From Polytrichum commune (Eukaryota > Streptophyta > Polytrichopsida > Polytrichales > Polytrichaceae): 64,000 nucleotides of DNA. The notes below the pieces were generated by a model that ran no database searches, was not told the origin of the DNA, and saw only the letters and a list, made by a program, of their open reading frames with translations. Position 1 is the first letter of the stretch. Every line of letters starts with the position of its first letter. Below are positions 29,733 to 43,900 of the stretch, one piece after another. Location of the stretch: the NCBI GenBank assembly GCA_950295325.1, contig OX485804.1, forward strand, positions 10,044,001-10,108,000, read 5' to 3'. A program made the position numbers and the translations under genes.

Positions 29733-29882
29733 TAATTGTTATATTGAAAATGATATTTTTGTGATATGTTATACTTTCAAATGTATGCTAATTTAGGACA
29801 ATGTAAGAAATATTGTGGTCTGCCTCGTAGTGGAACAAAGAAGAGATGGGGGTAATGAAAGGTTCTTTACGAAAACTTAGAC

Positions 29883-30183
29883 TACACTAAATATGATATT
29901 TAGTGTTAGATACACTAAATACGAACACTACACTAAAGATCACTAACCCTATGAAAGTAAGTAACATTAAATGTAAACTCAAACACTAAATATCATCTAT
30001 GGTAATATGTGAAAGTTACATGCACGAATTTAGTGTTTAGGAGGAAAGAGGTGGCAACAAGGAAGGCGGCGGCGGCGCATTTATGTCTAACACTAATTAT
30101 CAAAGAATTGAAAATTAATGTTGAGCAGAGTAGGGCGGTAAAACACTAAATCTAATCAAACACTAAATATCATATTTTGTGTA
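29883..30183. mobile_element. MITE family B2 with palindromic ends
   Basis: The left end TACACTAAATATGATATTTAGTGTT and the right end (complement of ATATCATATTTTGTGTAC) are inverted relative to each other, and the left is itself a palindrome. The interior is different from family B, but one segment is also found inverted at 14690-14830. A GGCGGCGGCGGC run sits at about 30063-30076. Confidence 0.7.
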
Positions 30184-31702
30184 CTCATTCTAAAAGTTAA
30201 TTAGCATTAGGGGCATGGATGAATTAAGACGTCTTCACAAAAGCAAGGTCCCAAAATTTAGCAAATTTCTAGTATGATGAATTTTTATTTGAACCTTAAT
30301 TAACTAGGTGGTGCAACCCTAAGATAGATTAGCTCTCACATAGGTTAGCTATCTCATATGTTAGCTAACCCTCTTAACTGCACAATACAACTAATTTGAG
30401 TGGTTACTTACTCTAACCGGAGCCTTGACCGGGATTTACGGCTGGACAATAAGTCAGGTTTTGGTTGCATGTGACCACTTACGGTCGATTATGTAGATTT
30501 CAACAAATTGTCTTGTTTGTGATTACTCGTCAAAACAGCAACTTCATTTCTACATTTTTTCATTGTTAGCAAGCCGTTGACAATCAATTTCGTGATAACG
30601 GAAGTAATTTGTGACATGACCCTGATGTTTGTGAACAATGCAGGTTACAATCAGACAATTTACAAGATTCGGAAGCAATCCTGGAACACCTTTAAAGTGT
30701 ACCACTCAATCAAATCTTTGTGACTATTTAGCACCCAATGCTGATACTATAAACAATTCACTAACACTAATTCCCATAAAAAGCTGAGATACTTTCATCA
30801 AAGCACCTCGCATGGTTGGTAACCTACATGAAGACGAAAAACAAAAAGAGACAGAAGAAAAGAGAATGAACACATTGATGTGACCGCCTTGACAATGGTC
30901 CATTAGGCATCCAAATGTCTTGTTTGAGTGGAGGAAAATGTAGTGCCTAGTGGGACTCTGGTACACTCGAATGAGGCAGGTGAAATATTAGATCAAGGGG
31001 ACTGAGGTGTGCTTATCTTGCAGTTTACGTTTGTTAAGGATGGTATAAGTGAGATTCTTTTGAAGAGCATTAAGAGGGTTTCCATCAGGCTTTGCATTTT
31101 GGAGGTTTGGATACCAAAATTGGAGATTGGCAATGGCAGAAGTGTGAATGACTATGAAAACTTGCTGGTATAGCATTATTACTCTGAACCCATTCTTTGA
31201 ATCTAGGAACTTTCCTTCCTGGTGGTTTCATTTTGATTGGAGGTCACATGCAGTTCATATGGCAGATGTATTAAATATGAACATTACATAACTGCAAATT
31301 GCACCACACGAGATTGAATCATTCTGTGCATCTTCACCTTCCAGACGAATTGAGTAAGAGGAAATATTTCTATGGTAGGGTAATGAGGTTCAGACAAGAG
31401 CCGGTCATCAAGAGTGTAAAAATATATTTTGAAATATCAAATAGATCCCGTGCTCCAGTAAAACAGTTTCCAACAAGGAATCAGAATGATAAAATCCTAA
31501 TGTTGGAAGTGACAAAATGGATGTCCTATGATCTCAAGACTTTGCTCACACATGCCAATCTCGTCTAAATACGAAATATTAAAACCTGATTGGATTTAGT
31601 ATCTACGTGCAGTCCACAGAAGTGAAAATTACAGCAGTATGTAGTACCTAAACAACTGTGCCTCTTATGGATAAAATGAATTCCAGTGCTTCAACCTCAA
31701 AA

Positions 31703-31838
31703 AGATGTTGCTTACATGTATGGAGAAAAGCTAAGATATAAACTTCCCATCATCTTCTAGTCAGCTTTCATGTTTGCCCCATGCGGCAGACGGTCAACCA
31801 TGGAAGGGAGGACTTCTGCAGACTCGATATGGGGCATT
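31703..31838 (-). ncRNA. H/ACA snoRNA-like unit 1
   Basis: Read on the minus strand, the first hairpin (31836-31775) closes with TGCCCCA pairing to TGGGGCA. It opens into an internal loop (TATCGAGTCT opposite CGCA), then closes again with GCAG/CTGC and GTC/GAC. This is the shape of an H/ACA arm with a pseudouridylation pocket. It is followed by ACATGA, which fits the H box (ANANNA). A weaker second hairpin comes next, then ACA three bases before a likely 3' end (AGCAACATCT). The length of 136 nt is typical of the class. The fold was found by eye; no target RNA was identified. Confidence 0.5.
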
Positions 31839-31886
31839 TCAGTGCCAATCTAGACCTAAAAACTCGACATTCAAAGATTCCCAAAC

Positions 31887-32008
31887 AAGACTGCTCATGT
31901 CTATGGAGAAAAACTTGCCATCATCTTCAAGTCAGCCTCCATATTCGCCCAATGCAGCAGACAATTCACCATGAAAAAGCTTACTGCTGCAGACTCGATA
32001 TGGGGCAA
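31887..32008 (-). ncRNA. H/ACA snoRNA-like unit 2 (degenerate)
   Basis: The most diverged copy. The lower stem has lost one pair (TGCCCCA against TTGGGCG), while the upper stem has changed on both sides (CAGT with ATTG replacing GTCC with GGAC) and still pairs. The H-box position reads ATATGG and the 3' box reads AGT instead of ACA. It may be a decaying copy. Confidence 0.35.
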
Positions 32009-32066
32009 CCCAATTCACATCATTCTGTCCACCACTTATCAACGTACGTGCAAATACTGGAAAAAA

Positions 32067-32202
32067 AGATGTCGCTCACACATATGGAGAAAAACTTAGA
32101 TTGCAGTTTCTCATCATCTTCTAGTCAGCATTCATTTCTGCCCCATGCGGCAGACGGTCCACCATTAAGAGGAAGACTGCTGCAGACTCGATATGGGACA
32201 GC
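32067..32202 (-). ncRNA. H/ACA snoRNA-like unit 3
   Basis: Same two-hairpin layout as unit 1. The lower stem keeps all seven pairs, one through a T-G wobble (TGTCCCA with TGGGGCA). The upper stem also uses a wobble (GTCT with GGAC). The hinge has AAATGA, a good H box. The 3' end reads GCGACATCT followed by a T run, placing ACA three bases from the end. Confidence 0.5.
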
Positions 32203-32307
32203 ATTGATAAACAGTTTTCATAATTTCTGGGATAGTTCCCAACTGTAAATTCAAGAGTGACAATCATACAGCTACATCATTAGTTTGAAATCTTTCTTAG
32301 ATTAGAG

Positions 32308-32440
32308 AAATATTGCTCACATATATGGAGGAAAGCTATAGTAACTTCCCATCATCTTCTAGTCAGCTTCCATATTTGCCCCACGCGGCAGACGGTCCAC
32401 CATAGAAAGGAGGACTGCTGCAGACTCGATATGGGGCAAC
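32308..32440 (-). ncRNA. H/ACA snoRNA-like unit 4
   Basis: The first hairpin pairs best of all copies: TGCCCCA with TGGGGCA, GCAG with CTGC and GTCC with GGAC, around a TATCGAGTCT pocket. The hinge is ATATGG and the terminal box is ATA rather than ACA; the latter is a known tolerated variant. A partial fifth copy follows at about 32605-32690. Confidence 0.45.
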
Positions 32441-32944
32441 AGACAAAATGCATCACTTTTCCCTAGACTATCGATATTCCATTATATTCACGGATGATTC
32501 CAGTGCAACTCTACTTTTATAGAGCGCAGAAAACCTCTACTTCGAACAAGATGTGAACCTGCAACTTCTTTTTTCTTGTTGCAGATCGATAATACAAAAC
32601 AAGATATTGCTCATATTCATATGGAAGAATCTCAATCCAGATTTCCCCGCCCAGCAGACGGTCCACCATGAAAATAAGGGTGGCTACCTAATACTCAAGA
32701 CAGCTAGGAATTGCAACATAATACACCACTGGACAAGTAAAACTTCGCTATGACTTTATCTCGAAAACGTGGAAAAACTACAGTGCATGCATCAGGAAAG
32801 TAAAAGCATATCGTGAATTGAACCATGCAAGGACGAAGTCAAGGTTGGAGATGGAAGTACTTTCTTTACTGTTCAACATTAAAATGTATTCTCATCAATG
32901 TACTTTCAAAAACCCTCTGATAAGAGAGACCTTAACGGACTGAC

Positions 32945-33987
<1,043 letters not shown>

Positions 33988-34076: not shown

Positions 34077-34096
34077 ACCAAACCCTAACCCTACGC
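34077..34096 (-). promoter_or_regulatory. Telo-box upstream of RPS9
   Basis: The plus strand reads AAACCCTAACCCTA about 90 bp before the RPS9 start codon. Telo-boxes (AAACCCTAA) close to the transcription start are characteristic of plant ribosomal-protein and translation genes, where they work with site II elements to drive expression in dividing cells. Confidence 0.7.
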
Positions 34097-36354: not shown

Positions 36355-38919
36355 ATGGAGGAGCGAGACGTCGTCTCGCAGCTCCTATCGCGAGCTTTCG
36401 ATTGGTCTCTATCAACACCATCTCGTGATGGAGCACCGAATTATGCAACGAATTTGGCGCTGACGGCTGTGGCAGGGGTGGCCGTAGCTGCGGCTGTAGG
36501 AGTTTTGATCTACTACCAAACCAACGACGGGAGTTTGCCTTTCAAGTTGTTTTCCTTCTCAACGAGGCGGCACCATTCCCCTTTAAAAGCTTCCGCATGG
36601 ACGGAGTGTTTCGGAGACGAAGGGAAATTGGTGGACGGAGGGGAGACCGTGATTTGCAGAGTGCGCGGTGGTGGTGTAGAGCCGTCCATTAGGGCACAGG
36701 TATGGCCATTCCTACTCGGTGTGTATGGGCTGGATAGCACCGCATCGGAGAGAGAGGCTGTGATGCGCAGTAAGGAGCAGGAGTACGAGGATCTGCGAAG
36801 CCGGTGTGCCCTGGCTGCCAAAACCCTAAGTGAGGGACTTGAGGAGATCCGACAAGCTGGTGATGTAGTCGAGGAGGAGGAACAATCACGTGATGGGTTT
36901 GGTATTGGGTGCGATTCATCAGGTGTAGCATGCCAGGAATTTGAGGAGAGTCAAGCTGATGCAGTGAAAGAGGAGGAACAATCAACGAATGATACTGATG
37001 ATATTGATTTTGGCTCATCAGGGGTAGCAAGCCACAGTGATGGACATGAAGAGGATAATAGACAAGATTCACCTACAAACTCAAGTGACGATCTGAACTG
37101 CAGCACTGGTTGGGAAGGTGGTGATAATAAGCCTGATGCAACGAAGCTACAGGAGGCAGAGGATTTCCAGAGTGGGCAGCTGTCTACCTCGTTTGATGTT
37201 AGCTGTGAGTCCTCAGGCGGAGCAAGCCAGGAATTGGAGGAGAGGCAAGCTGGTGCACTGAAGGAGGAGGAACAATCAACTGATGATGCTGATGATATTG
37301 GCTGTGACTCAACAAGGGTAGCAACAAACCACAGTGATGGTAATGACGAGCACAAACGACAAGATTCGCCTTCAAGCTCGAGTGGAATTCTGAATTGCAG
37401 TATTGGTTCCCAAGGTGGCGACAAGTCTGATGCAACGAAGCTACAGGAGGCAGAGGACTTCCACTCTGGACAACTTTCTACCCCTGGTGATATTGCATCA
37501 GGGGTAGGAAGCCAGGAATTTGGGGAGAGGCAAGCTGGTGCAGTGAAGGAGGAGGAACAATCAATTTATGATGCTGATGATATTGGCTGTGACTCAACAG
37601 GGTTAGCAAGTCACATTGATGGACATGCGGAGGCTAAACGACAAGACTTACCTGCAAGTTCGAGTGGGCATCTGCATTGCAGTATTGGTTCCCAAGGTGG
37701 TGACAAGCCTGATGCATCGGAGCTACAGGAGTCAAAGGACTTCCATATTGGGCAGCTGTCTACGTCTGTTGGTGTGTTATCAGGGGTGGCTAGCCAGGAA
37801 TTTGAAGAGCGCCAAGCCGATGCAGTCCAGGAGAAACAATCAACACATGGCGCTGATGATATTGGGTGTGACTCATCAGATATAACAAGCCAAGAATGTG
37901 AGGAGAGCCAAGCCGATGCAGTCAAGGTGGAACAATCAACTGATGATGCAGATATTGTGTGTGACTCAACAAGGGTAGCAAGCTGCAGTGATGGATGTGA
38001 AGAGGATAGAGGAGAAGATTCACCTACAAGCTTGAGTGGCAATCTGAATTCCAGTACTGGGAAGGAAGATGGTGACAAGCCTCTTGCAATGAAGCTAAAG
38101 CAGGCAGAGGATTTCCAGACTTGGCAGCGGATCATCAAGCTCGATGCGGTTAGGATGAATGCAGAGTGGATACCGTATGCAGAGACACAGGCAAGTGTGA
38201 CATTTGAGGAGGCAGCCAGGCTATCAGAAGCAGCTGGGTTGAAGGACGATGAGCATCTTGAACCAAGCAGGAGACATCATGCTGCTCGTCTTGTCCTTAT
38301 TCTGGAAGCTTACACCCTGTATGATCCGATAACTGGTTACTGTCAAGGAATGAGTGACCTGCTGTCACCGTTTGTTGCCCTCATTGACGAAGACTATGAA
38401 GCCTTTTGGTGTTTTGTCAAATTCATGGAGGTTGCTCGACACAATTTTCGATTGGATGAAGTTGGAATCCGGCGGCAACTCAACTTAGTCGGCAGCATAT
38501 TGGAAGCAGCCGATCCCCAGCTTTTCAAACACCTTGTAAAACTGGAGTCTGATGATTGTAACTTCATCTACCGAATGGTCGTGGTGCTCGTACGCCGGGA
38601 GCTGAGTTTTGAGCAGACTCTGTGCCTGTGGGAGGTAATGTGGGCTGATTGGGCAGCTATCAACAATAGATTGGGTTCTGGCAGAAGACGAAGATGGGGC
38701 AGATTAGGTCCACCTTCCCGAGATTTGGTGCTCTACACCATTGCAGCTGCTGTTAGGAAAAGGAGAAAACACATTTTACAATGCAGTGGGATGGATGAAT
38801 TGTTTGCGGAATGCAATGGTATGGCTGGTCATCTCGACATCTGGGAGTTACTTGCTGATGCAAGGGAATTGGTGCAGTTGGTCCGGTGCAAGCTCCCGGC
38901 ATGTGAGCAGGATTCCTGA
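36355..38919 (+). CDS. TBC-domain Rab GTPase-activating protein with internal repeats
   Basis: A single-exon gene of 854 residues. TBC proteins speed up GTP hydrolysis by Rab GTPases in membrane traffic. The front part of the domain is at about 80-150 (SAWTECFGDEGKL, VEPSIRAQVWPFLLGVYG, TASEREAVM). The arginine-finger motif I-x-x-D-x-x-R is at 594-600 and the glutamine-finger motif Y-x-Q at 662-664 (GYCQGMSDLLSP). Later come EAFWCFVKFMEVARHNF and LWEVMWADW. Plant relatives also have a long insert between the first and second parts, but here it is about 400 residues of acidic, Ser/Asp-rich repeats (roughly 190-588). A hydrophobic segment at 31-54 (ATNLALTAVAGVAVAAAVGV...) could be a membrane anchor. 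The start is the first ATG and gives a sensible N-terminus. Specific Rab partner unknown. Confidence 0.9.
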   Translation: MEERDVVSQLLSRAFDWSLSTPSRDGAPNYATNLALTAVAGVAVAAAVGVLIYYQTNDGSLPFKLFSFSTRRHHSPLKASAWTECFGDEGKLVDGGETVICRVRGGGVEPSIRAQVWPFLLGVYGLDSTASEREAVMRSKEQEYEDLRSRCALAAKTLSEGLEEIRQAGDVVEEEEQSRDGFGIGCDSSGVACQEFEESQADAVKEEEQSTNDTDDIDFGSSGVASHSDGHEEDNRQDSPTNSSDDLNCSTGWEGGDNKPDATKLQEAEDFQSGQLSTSFDVSCESSGGASQELEERQAGALKEEEQSTDDADDIGCDSTRVATNHSDGNDEHKRQDSPSSSSGILNCSIGSQGGDKSDATKLQEAEDFHSGQLSTPGDIASGVGSQEFGERQAGAVKEEEQSIYDADDIGCDSTGLASHIDGHAEAKRQDLPASSSGHLHCSIGSQGGDKPDASELQESKDFHIGQLSTSVGVLSGVASQEFEERQADAVQEKQSTHGADDIGCDSSDITSQECEESQADAVKVEQSTDDADIVCDSTRVASCSDGCEEDRGEDSPTSLSGNLNSSTGKEDGDKPLAMKLKQAEDFQTWQRIIKLDAVRMNAEWIPYAETQASVTFEEAARLSEAAGLKDDEHLEPSRRHHAARLVLILEAYTLYDPITGYCQGMSDLLSPFVALIDEDYEAFWCFVKFMEVARHNFRLDEVGIRRQLNLVGSILEAADPQLFKHLVKLESDDCNFIYRMVVVLVRRELSFEQTLCLWEVMWADWAAINNRLGSGRRRRWGRLGPPSRDLVLYTIAAAVRKRRKHILQCSGMDELFAECNGMAGHLDIWELLADARELVQLVRCKLPACEQDS
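36925..38118 (+). repeat. In-frame tandem repeats of about 285 bp in the TBC gene
   Basis: Four imperfect units of about 85-105 codons run head to tail. Each starts with a QEFEERQADAVKEEEQST-like segment, passes through DDIGCDST and DGHEEDKRQDSP, and ends in KLQEAEDFQSGQLST. The last unit runs straight into the catalytic segment as KQAEDFQTWQRIIKLD. That suggests the array grew by duplication of the native sequence just before the arginine-finger motif. Confidence 0.85.
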
Positions 38920-39915: not shown

Positions 39916-40289
39916 TACACTAAATGTCATATCTAGTGTCACCAATTCTAATCGTCTGCACAATACTAATTGTAAACCGCAGTATAGTGTTGCCAACACT
40001 AAATGTCAACCCAATATTATTCATCGTTCCTTGTAAAAGTTTTTGGGGATTATAGATTTACAGTGCTACGGTTACTGTCACTTACCAAGTGATCCTTCGT
40101 ATAAATTTCAATCATCCATGATAATACTTCATCACAAGTTGCTGACAAGAGAAGGTAGGGTTTTGGCCAATGGATGAGTATCCATCATCTATGGCAACAT
40201 TTGTTCCCTCAATTCATAAGAAGTGTCATCTGAGAAGTTGCTATACTGACACAAAATACCATATGACACAAAATATCATATTTAGTGTA
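39916..40289. mobile_element. MITE family B, copy 3 (reverse)
   Basis: Inverted relative to the copies at 13140 and 16150. It begins GTACACTAAATGTCATATCTAGTG, contains GTTGCCAACACTAAATGTCAA and CAATCATCCATGATAAT, and ends ATATCATATTTAGTGTA at 40289. No protein is encoded. Confidence 0.8.
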
Positions 40290-40969
40290 GTTAGTATGCA
40301 CACCAAAGAATAAATTACAACTTAGGTGGTAAAAAACGATAATGTTGGTGACGTGTAACTCCAAATGGTAACCCACACTAATTAGACAAGACAGTGTAGT
40401 GTAATGAATACATGCAAACATCAACTTTGACAAGTCTAACTCTGATAAAACTTGGAAATACTGATTTCATGATATTGAGGGGTGTAGAAGAATCAAAATA
40501 AAGATGTGCATGACATACAGTGTAGTCATTGATTATGTGACATTATGGTTCATACAAGTAACAAGTCACTCATACGACACAGTACTTGGTCCTCATTGTT
40601 GTGATCATACACAGAAACAACATTATCAAGAACAAGGAACTGTAATTAGTCATGTTTTGGTCAAGATATATTTTTTTGAAATTTTTTTATCATTTGAGCC
40701 AAAAACAAGTTCAACTGAATTACATAGTGCTGTTGCATGCTTCTAATGTACAAAGATTATACACGATCCATTCAAGATGCACATGGATTGCCATGTACTA
40801 TGGACTACAAATAACTGTCGATGATCTTACATTGTGAAAATCTAGAGTCTAATTAATTATCTGAAAGAAGGTTACTAAATGAGCATATTTTTTCTGTAAC
40901 AACACTATTTGACGTTGTGAAGAGTTGTCGTGCATTTCAGCGCAGATATGTGTAATTTCTGGACAGTAT

Positions 40970-43900
40970 TTACTCAGAAGCTCTGCGTGGAACATCTTCG
41001 GGCAGACCTGCTGGGTTAACATTGTTGGCAGGGTGCACTTCCGCAGGCGAAAAAGTCTCTTTAATTGCATCCTTCAAAGCTGTGGCTGTCTGTCCTACGC
41101 TCTCGGTGATTGTTTGTGCTGGTGGGTGGGTTACCGTGTGGTTGGTTGTAGTTGGAGTTGAAGTGGGTGAGTTTGCTGTAGGAGATGACGCTGATTTCCC
41201 AACTAAGGCGTCTTTCACCGATAGAGCAGTTTTTGAAACAAATGCAGTGACAGACTGAAGAAGCGTAGGATCTTGACCGGCATGCAATGCCCTTGCTTCG
41301 TTTTCCGTGGTTGTGGGTGCAGCAGCTGTTGTGGTGTCAGCTGAATGAGCCCCTTGTTGCAGTGTCTGGTTAATTGCCGCAGCACCTTTACTCAATGCTT
41401 CCTGAACTGTGCTGATACCTGTAGAAACACAAGGTTAAGCGTGTATTTGCAAATGATAGCAAGTGAACAGAAAGGAGGGGATGTAGAGGGCAGCCATAAG
41501 TATAAACTCAGTTCCTATTGACAGTGTCTAGGTCGAGATCACTTGGCAAGTGTTTCCAAGTCCAACTAGTTATATGTTGATATCTATATTTGGAGATTTG
41601 AGATATATTCTATATATTCCTCTAAAATGATCAGCAATTTGCCTCAAGTCTTGAACTTAAACATGAACTCGATATTTCTCAACTTGAACCGAATCATCCG
41701 TAACTAGTGGTCGGATCCCCCCATCCCAAGCTTTAGGAGACTGATTCTATTTGAAGTGGTTAATGTAGGTCGCTAATCAACTGGGGATAATCTAGGGGCC
41801 ACTTTATACTTTGGTCAAGGGCCGTGAACATGAAATTGTGCGCCCCTTGAAACTAATCCAAGAGTGTTCCATGAAAACTTGAAATTGATTTTTGTGTGGT
41901 CATGGGCCTACAAGTGTAGTGTAAAGACAAACATGACCAGGCTCTAAACCTTATTTTATCTTCATTACCAATCCTATTTCATGTGGACCCTTCTACACAA
42001 TAAGCTACAGTAAATCAGGGAATGTGAGGTTTTGAAGTATCATGGTCTCCCAGTTGAGTTAGACCCACCTCTTTGAGGTGGGCTTGATGCAAAACTCGGT
42101 AGACCATGGAAAATTATCCATAGCAGGCCATGTAGGACTCCATGTAGGTTTTCCATCCATTCACACTTCCTTTGATTCCTCCCTCAAGCTCTAGTGTTAA
42201 ATGAGACGGTCTCAGCATTCTCCACCAACAAAAGATTTTAGATTTCAATGGTCACGGGCCCTCAAGCTCTAGTGTAAAGCGACCTTGATGAGGTTTCAAC
42301 AATACCTCGTTACAAAGCAGATTTCTTAGCATATTAATACAGCCTCATCTAACAACAGCAAATAGAAGCTTCTAAACTACAGAGCTTAGTCTTATTAACT
42401 GTAATCTTGTAACTGTTTACAACAGATGTAAAGTAGATCCAGGTTTTTCCATTACTGTTGTTTATGTTTAGCGAATAAATATGGTGTAACATTAAGTGTG
42501 TTGAATGTCTATGATAATGTTCTGAGCGATGTTTACAGAGGAGATTCCAACAATAGGTACCTTGTTGCAAGGCAGATTTGCCACCCTGGGCATGTAGTTG
42601 TGCATCTTGGCTCTTCTGCTGCGCCTGTTGCCTTGCAGCAGTCGTGGCATCCTGCACACCAACAGCAGCTTGGTCGCGTGCTACGCCCATCTGCTGGGCA
42701 ATTTGCTTTCCAGATACTTCTGCTGTGTGGAATGCCTCCCCAAGTTGTTGAAGCGCAGTGTTGTAGCTGTGTGTAGCATCTTGAGCAGTGGTATTAACAT
42801 CTTGCTTCACTTGCTCCCCAGCTTGTCTGAACAGCAAATGTCCATTATAAAATTATTAGTAATTTTCTGGAGCAGCCACAATTGTGGAATTATCGAAGCA
42901 ATTCTTGACAAATACAAATATTTCAAAACGAAGTACAACTGACTGCAGGTGAACAATTTAACAGTGATCACCACGATCCCTTTATGCCATAACCCATAAG
43001 ACTGATATGCCACCAGATCCACTCAAGTGAAACCCAAGCCATCAATGGACAATAAAAGAGAAGTAACTCTGATAAAAACGTAATAGGAACTATTCATATC
43101 AACAAGGATCCCACTACTTCTCTAAAGCCAAACCTGAATATCCGATCCTACACGGAATTAGGTAAAGGACAGAAGTGAGAAGTGATTGACTAAAATAAAA
43201 ACATGATACTAAACTCTCATTCTTGTGTCTCACTTAGAAGTAGTACATAGGTAACATCAGCACCCATTAACCGGGTCGCTTGTTATCTGGGTTGTGCACT
43301 GTTTTATGCACTATATAACGTAACAACGTCAAAAATTACATTAAAGTGTCGATGCAACTCAGATGTGTTTATAAGCGCATTCTGATTACGCACCACAACG
43401 TAACTCTCACAGTGGCAATTTCTGATGATATTTGCCGATAGTGACCTATGTAATATGGCACGTATAGTGCTTGAAATTCTGACACAAGCTCTTATTTCTG
43501 TTGCATAGGCGGTGGAAAAATACTTGAGAAACAGATCCTTCACAGGAACTTCTATGTTGAAAGGAACAAAGAAAATTGACGAATGTAAAACTATTACATG
43601 GTGGACTGTTACACAGCAGAAACCTTTGCAATAATACATAGCATACCTGTTTGTGGGATCGTTACGCGCACTGTCAAATTGCTGCTTCGAGCTACCCACC
43701 AGTTCATTTATCTTGTCCCTGGCGGCAATCTTGAGTTGACTCAGCTGCTCGTCAATAGGCTGCTGAGGCTGCACAAGACAGAAAGACGAACTGTCAGCTG
43801 TTTCTTACTACCTATTCTAACAATTGGTGACCAAACTTCTGAACACATCAAAATGGAGCAATAAAATCTCTGCCACATGACCTGCCTCGCACAAACGAAA

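Follow-up and report, generated by a model that had tools for sequence, protein, structure and literature searches.

A likely H/ACA-like guide RNA gene family in two clusters behind the RPS9 genes of Polytrichum commune

What are the short repeated units that follow a ribosomal protein gene in Polytrichum commune? The window, that is, the whole 64,000-nucleotide stretch of DNA that was analysed (C2:10044001-10108000, in a genome of 408 Mb), carries four units and a decayed fragment on its minus strand between positions 31704 and 32700, downstream of RPS9 and on the same strand as that gene. In our judgement they probably belong to a polycistronic family of H/ACA-type guide RNAs that occurs in two clusters, was duplicated with RPS9 and has no match in Rfam 15. 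The features concerned are, in the reading direction of RPS9:

34080..34087, minus strand: TAGGGTTT, a telo-box-like motif in the aligned 5' stretch of RPS9
33384-33770 and 32945-33137 (span 32945..33770), minus strand: coding exons of the 3' part of RPS9 (uS4), as aligned to the second RPS9 gene, on C6
32596..32700, minus strand: W5, a decayed fragment, with a weak model match (8.5 bits, E 2.4)
32516..32521, minus strand: TATAAA, 424 nt after the RPS9 stop codon and about 81 nt before W4
32308..32440, minus strand: W4, with hairpin 1 at 32438-32377, hairpin 2 at 32366-32316 and an AUA box at 32313-32311, from alignment, boxes and fold (z -2.79)
32069..32200, minus strand: W3, with hairpin 1 at 32200-32139, hairpin 2 at 32128-32075 and an ACA box at 32072-32070, from alignment, boxes and folds
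31889..32008, minus strand: W2, with hairpin 1 at 32007-31946 and a shortened hairpin 2 at 31935-31894, from alignment, boxes and folds
31704..31838, minus strand: W1, with hairpin 1 at 31836-31775, a hinge, hairpin 2 at 31764-31711 and an ACA box at 31708-31706, from alignment, boxes and folds

The identity of the gene as RPS9/uS4 was established by Pfam and PDB chains. Four units and a fragment in one orientation, as described in the initial annotation, were confirmed at this place, and the clustering and the strand given there are borne out. The units start 171, 193 and 238 nt apart, and W1, W2, W3 and W4 can be aligned along their full length on the minus strand, W2 without 12 columns in hairpin 2. 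Since it has neither an ACA/AUA box nor either form of hinge box, W2 is probably a decayed unit. W5, which looks decayed as well, has lost its 5' guide arm and still contains the apical part of hairpin 1, together with the 3' side of the second hairpin.

A second cluster lies on C6. With a 106-amino-acid query from the window RPS9, two places were found in the genome, the window and C6:17054529-17054846, and at both RPS9 genes found the cluster stands 3' of the stop codon, in the orientation of the gene. When 1,051 nt of the window were used as a query, 10 further stretches were returned on C6 (best E 7.9e-29), where 11 tandem copies (T1-T11) form an array with a period of 142 nt and 89% matches (888-2447 of the C6 stretch L001). 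DNA queries from the window and from the array both returned the same two loci only, as judged by the best-scoring candidates in an assembly with gaps. Additionally, a 20-mer from the 5' arm, allowed up to three mismatches, matched 18 times in the 408 Mb: four times in the window, 11 times in the array and three times elsewhere, each of the last with three mismatches. The reversed pattern, used as a control, gave no match in the same 408 Mb. An identical 20-mer with three mismatches to the unit 5' arm occurs at C2:65107175 and C31:5421, on opposite strands, and a near match at C6 17478298 (L004), a stretch that presumably represents glycosidase coding sequence, was set aside as no unit is present there.

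The 15-unit set used below thus consists of W1-W4 and T1-T11, four units from the window and 11 from the array, and copies inside one locus are not independent. W4 is the window unit nearest to the array, with an identity of up to 83%. T9-T11 (L001 2023-2437) are more diverged and fold more weakly than the array copies preceding them, as if the array were decaying at its 3' end. W1, W3, W4 and T1-T8 look intact, with the exception of T5, which is without either hinge-box form; T9, T10 and T11 are poor folders.

The distance from the RPS9 stop codon to the first full unit is 505 nt in the window (W4; the fragment is met at 255 nt) and 339 nt on C6. Local alignment of the two loci (E up to 1e-3) recovers the RPS9 exons, one stretch in the 5' part of the gene and the units; the spacers do not align, and neither do the introns that separate the RPS9 exons. 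Because the cluster follows the RPS9 stop codon at both loci, it is most likely that RPS9 and the cluster were duplicated as a pair, a reading drawn from position rather than from a tree. The link to RPS9 proposed in the initial annotation is strengthened by this second locus, since it too follows an RPS9 gene, the only other one found. Nine other aligned rows fall outside the RPS9-cluster region and come from window segments 29881-29911, 30143-30195, 39916-40397 and 41549-41662. A stretch of roughly 370 nt, whose occurrences are 78-80% alike, is found at window 39916-40293, at L002 2482-2848 and at about 4731-5093 of L003; it flanks the C6 array on both sides and has a single occurrence in the compared part of the window (20001-44000). 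We regard it as a dispersed repeat or a piece of a gene. The window also holds a single open frame of 854 amino acids at 36355-38919, a stretch of which resembles a TBC domain.

Based on an RNAalifold consensus of the 15 units, the family has the order hairpin, hinge, hairpin and tail. Compared with 300 column-shuffled alignments, the sense consensus has a z of -3.58 (2/300 shuffles as low) and the antisense consensus a z of -0.83 (58/300); for eight chosen rows of the 15, the values are -3.28 (0/300) and -1.79 (12/300), respectively. Folded singly, W1-W4 give z values of -1.03, -0.21, -1.97 and -2.79 on the sense strand and of -1.18, -2.51, -0.58 and -3.37 on the opposite strand, and the fragment gives +0.35 on each; the strand is thus not settled by window units folded one by one. 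Of the 11 array units, seven were folded singly, on the sense strand only, with z values of -2.69 (T1), -2.30 (T3), -3.12 (T5), -2.86 (T7), +0.41 (T9), -1.04 (T10) and +1.67 (T11). When the hairpins were folded one at a time, the sense strand had the lower energy in 12 of the 15 units for hairpin 1 and in 12 of the 15 for hairpin 2.

The lower stem of hairpin 1, given as 7 bp in the initial annotation, is indeed kept, at a length of eight columns (3-10 with 57-64), with one mismatch and one wobble in W2. Above it, the aligned units have the asymmetric internal loop that had been claimed, with AUCGAGUCU on the left and CGC on the right (UGC in W2), followed by the upper stem. The compensatory change reported for the upper stem of W2 (CAGT with ATTG) turned out to be an error of register: W2, W3 and W4 all have CAGT on the 5' strand, and in W2 the 3' strand is altered from ACCG to ATTG and two pairs further up, 28-44 and 29-43, are lost. 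The true two-sided change of this stem is at column pair 24-48, where the 11 array copies have U-A and W2, W3 and W4 have C-G. Over the whole structure, 89.2% of the pairing cells can pair, against 36.6-44.8% when the partners are slid, and 72 of 500 shuffles are as high. Two-sided change was found in 5 of 35 pairs (reached by 59/500 shuffles), the covariation score was reached by 220/500, and the nine two-sided cells, which only 2/500 shuffles reach, compare with 12 when the structure is slid by -2. Even with the larger set of 15 units, covariation is therefore not convincing as support, and it speaks neither for nor against the structure because much of the structure is invariant.

In 14 of the 15 units the stem of hairpin 2 is followed, after two bases, by ACA or AUA, W2 having GTC at that column, and the ACA that had been placed three bases before the 3' ends of W1 and W3 is present. 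The strict form of the H box, ANANNA, was found at the aligned place in 3/15 units (W1, W3 and T4), and ANANA directly after the stem in 12/15, with W2 and T5 fitting neither form. W1 and W3 are the units for which an H box had been proposed in the initial annotation; as a trait of the family, a canonical H box is not supported. As described in a 2025 study of plant structured RNAs (PMC12218528), ANANA and ANANNNA are possible forms of the H box, and AUA can take the place of ACA.

With the eukaryotic box H/ACA snoRNAs, the units share the order of hairpin, hinge, hairpin and tail, an internal loop in each hairpin and an ACA/AUA after hairpin 2; they differ in a hinge box that is mostly ANANA and in closed pockets that lie 10-12 nt from the boxes. 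The assignment to an H/ACA-type class is supported by the two hairpins, the ACA/AUA box and the sense fold. In a search with 4,227 Rfam 15 families, no match at the gathering score was obtained in the window or in L001-L004; the description as a new family holds with respect to Rfam 15 and extends no further. Neither a tRNA nor a known RNA was found, the matches being weak ones only. Among them, snoR110 (RF01180, an H/ACA RNA) reached 21.7 and 18.0 bits, where 44 would be needed for its gathering score. One such sub-threshold match lies at T3 (about 1166-1240 of L001), where hairpin 1 ends in the same hinge, AUAAAUCU, as snoR110; this hinge is found in array copies T1-T3. The letters of the internal loop differ from those of snoR110, and the scores lie far under the threshold.

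Could the hairpins instead act within the RPS9 messenger? They might be cis-acting elements of a long RPS9 3' UTR, serving stability, the choice of 3' end or autoregulation, rather than separate RNAs. Each cluster begins shortly after an RPS9 stop codon and has the orientation of the gene, which suits such elements. On C6, AATAAA occurs at L001 2441-2446 and 2536-2541, 4 and 99 nt beyond the last aligned unit, and these are the only two in the 3.2 kb after the stop codon, although so short a motif is common by chance. However, in the window the first AATAAA comes 2,656 nt past the stop codon, a UTR of about 1.2-1.9 kb with up to 11 copies would be needed, and a plain UTR hairpin has no need of the ACA/AUA that is held after hairpin 2 in nearly all units. 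We consider this explanation unlikely.

The sequence differences between the two loci bear on whether the units have any function at all. The RPS9 genes differ at a proportion of 0.54 of synonymous sites (Jukes-Cantor dS 0.97; 36/78 fourfold sites). Between window and array units, the differences in hairpin 1 are 0.04 for the left arm, 0.01 for the base of the upper stem and 0.09 for the lower stem; in hairpin 2 they are 0.07 for the left side of the loop, 0.09 for columns 86-90 and 0.25 for the lower stem. The right sides of the two loops differ by 0.13 and 0.18, the apical parts by 0.41 and 0.35, the tail by 0.52 and the hinge by 0.63. The left arm and the stems of hairpin 1 are constrained. 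The differences are uneven among the parts, and therefore not every part of the unit is held. A functionless local minisatellite, grown by unequal crossing-over, would account for a tandem array with a 142-nt period and 89% matches, and for T9 and T11, two of the seven array units folded singly, which with z above 0 fold no better than shuffles. It would not account for an arm and stems of hairpin 1 that differ by 1-9% between loci against 54% at RPS9 synonymous sites, for the spread between apical parts, hinge and tail (35-63%) and the remaining parts (7-25%), or for a consensus fold that beats shuffles on one strand. Such an origin appears decidedly improbable, and we return to the guide RNA.

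If the units are guide RNAs, their pockets should find a target. In the closed form, the distance from pocket to box is 10 or 12 nt in hairpin 1 (hinge box) and 11 nt in hairpin 2 (ACA box), compared with about 15 nt described for the H/ACA class (PMC8351944). The spacing would become 14 nt if pairs 20-23/50-53 and 86-88/117-119 opened on target binding. The genome's own rDNA was searched for and not found, and the target scans were run on approximate sequences of Arabidopsis-like 18S, 25S and 5.8S rRNAs and of five snRNAs. In the scan of these rRNAs and snRNAs for pocket sites, as suggested in the initial annotation, 12 choices of pocket were compared with 20 shuffled sets each, and no match exceeded the highest shuffled control. 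Three of the 12 choices, one in hairpin 1 and two in hairpin 2, exceeded the median of the shuffled maxima. Both hairpin 2 choices, with window and array arms, hit position 1059 of the approximate 18S sequence, with scores of 9.1 and 10.0 against control medians of 7.8 and 8.0 and control maxima of 10.8 and 12.0. This site, paired to the closed hairpin 2 pocket with 11 nt to the ACA box, is the best lead.

A second scan, by stacking energy averaged over 4 of the 15 units (W1, W4, T1 and T6), does not have 18S 1059 among its 25 best matches. Its best value for hairpin 1 was -24.2; over 40 shuffled sets, the best values had a median of -22.1 and went as low as -33.3. For hairpin 2 the control median was -15.1, and the best 25 matches, all at or below -12.8, include none of hairpin 2. 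For now, the putative guide RNA is an orphan.

A different two-hairpin RNA, such as a miRNA precursor, another non-coding RNA or an RNA of the opposite strand, might merely resemble the H/ACA class. The non-canonical H box, the short pocket spacing and the want of a target above controls among the approximate rRNAs and snRNAs would fit this, as would the lower fold z on the opposite strand in three of the four window units and the ACA/AUA one base past the outer stem of that strand, the best matching place, in 6/15 units (W4 and T5-T9). Set against these points are the consensus z of -3.58 on the sense strand versus -0.83 on the opposite strand and an ACA/AUA in 14/15 units on the sense strand versus 6/15, on which the opposite strand was judged the less likely RNA, even though single window units fold as well on it. 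In addition, the period of 142 nt cannot be divided by three, and successive copies of the array therefore do not continue one reading frame; a protein-coding repeat was rejected on the same ground. We hold a mere resemblance to the class to be very unlikely, and the H/ACA-type guide RNA remains the reading that we prefer.

In a further reading, a snoRNA from the RPS9 unit might bind RPS9 mRNA and so balance the supply of ribosomal protein. GAGUCUGCAG, where hairpin 1 is most conserved, is perfectly complementary to RPS9 over 10 nt on C6 and over 8 nt in the window; the coding sequence there, at L-Q-T codons, reads CUGCAGACUC on C6 (about 7766 of L002) and CUGCAGACCC in the window (at about 33466, minus strand). 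For the C6 gene, pairing to exon 2 reached -18.5 kcal/mol, with 0/300 shuffles as low, and the pre-mRNA stretch had 4/300; for the window gene, 59/300 shuffles were as low for exon 2 and 39/300 for the pre-mRNA stretch, at a different site. RPS9 mRNA was rejected as a target of pseudouridylation, the pairing of the window gene not being significant and the pocket geometry misfitting. Any binding would be plain antisense, because no uridine is paired on both sides where the pocket needs one. We regard such a balancing role as highly improbable. Finally, membership in a transposon, which the initial annotation had named as the finding that would tell against it, is disfavoured because both loci found adjoin RPS9, and a dispersed repeat was likewise rejected, the 15 units occurring at only these two loci among the best-scoring candidates.

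How might such a family work? The units would be tandem genes for a single guide RNA of the H/ACA type, about 130 nt long, and would share their reading strand with RPS9. We infer that they are transcribed, processed, bound by protein and used as guides, in the following way. Transcription may run on from the RPS9 promoter, or it may begin at a small promoter that lies past RPS9 and ahead of the first unit; either way, the resulting polycistronic precursor would be cut into single RNAs. In each of these, the dyskerin/NHP2/NOP10/GAR1 core would bind the hinge and the ACA/AUA box. A target RNA would be recognised for pseudouridylation by pairing with AUCGAGUCU, the left arm of hairpin 1, perhaps extended by GCAG. 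A TATA-like motif, short enough to be common by chance, precedes the first full unit by 81 nt in the window and 71 nt on C6, and the TATAAA at 32516..32521 is possibly a promoter element of the cluster. The C6 RPS9 gene carries TAGGGTTT at the matching place of the aligned 5' stretch.

Polycistronic snoRNA clusters of plants, as described in PMC3022908 and PMC7671301, likewise consist of several snoRNA genes in the same orientation outside introns. In Arabidopsis, telo boxes are reported in PMC3022908 to precede 37 of 40 non-intronic snoRNA loci; in rice, they precede 22 of 41 independent clusters. In contrast, neither a telo box nor a site II motif was found between the RPS9 stop codon and the first unit at either locus, and the RPS9 clusters hold a single type of RNA as far as Rfam shows. 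A further comparison is with PRP38-HACA, MPCRibo-HACA and EIF3G1&2-HACA, which are described in PMC12218528 as putative plant H/ACA RNAs in introns of homologous genes. Judged by these descriptions, they resemble the present units in keeping a fixed place in homologous host genes, which for one of the three are genes of ribosomal proteins, but lie in introns of flowering plants rather than 3' of the RPS9 stop codon. The genome itself has five matches over the cut-off to a radial-spoke protein family (PF04712), four of them adjacent on contig C1, against none in 14 control genomes; flowering plants lack flagellar proteins of this kind, and the host is thus probably a plant with swimming sperm. 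Among the titles retrieved in a literature search on snoRNAs of non-seed plants, none was that of a catalogue.

In summary, an H/ACA-like gene family is present in two clusters in P. commune; its class is likely, and it is ordinary in kind. A target, if found, would add a modification site; if there is none, the family would be a well-conserved and easily tested orphan. If a guide RNA has kept its place 3' of the two RPS9 genes from a time before they were duplicated, a ribosomal protein gene and a modification guide would be tied to each other outside an intron.
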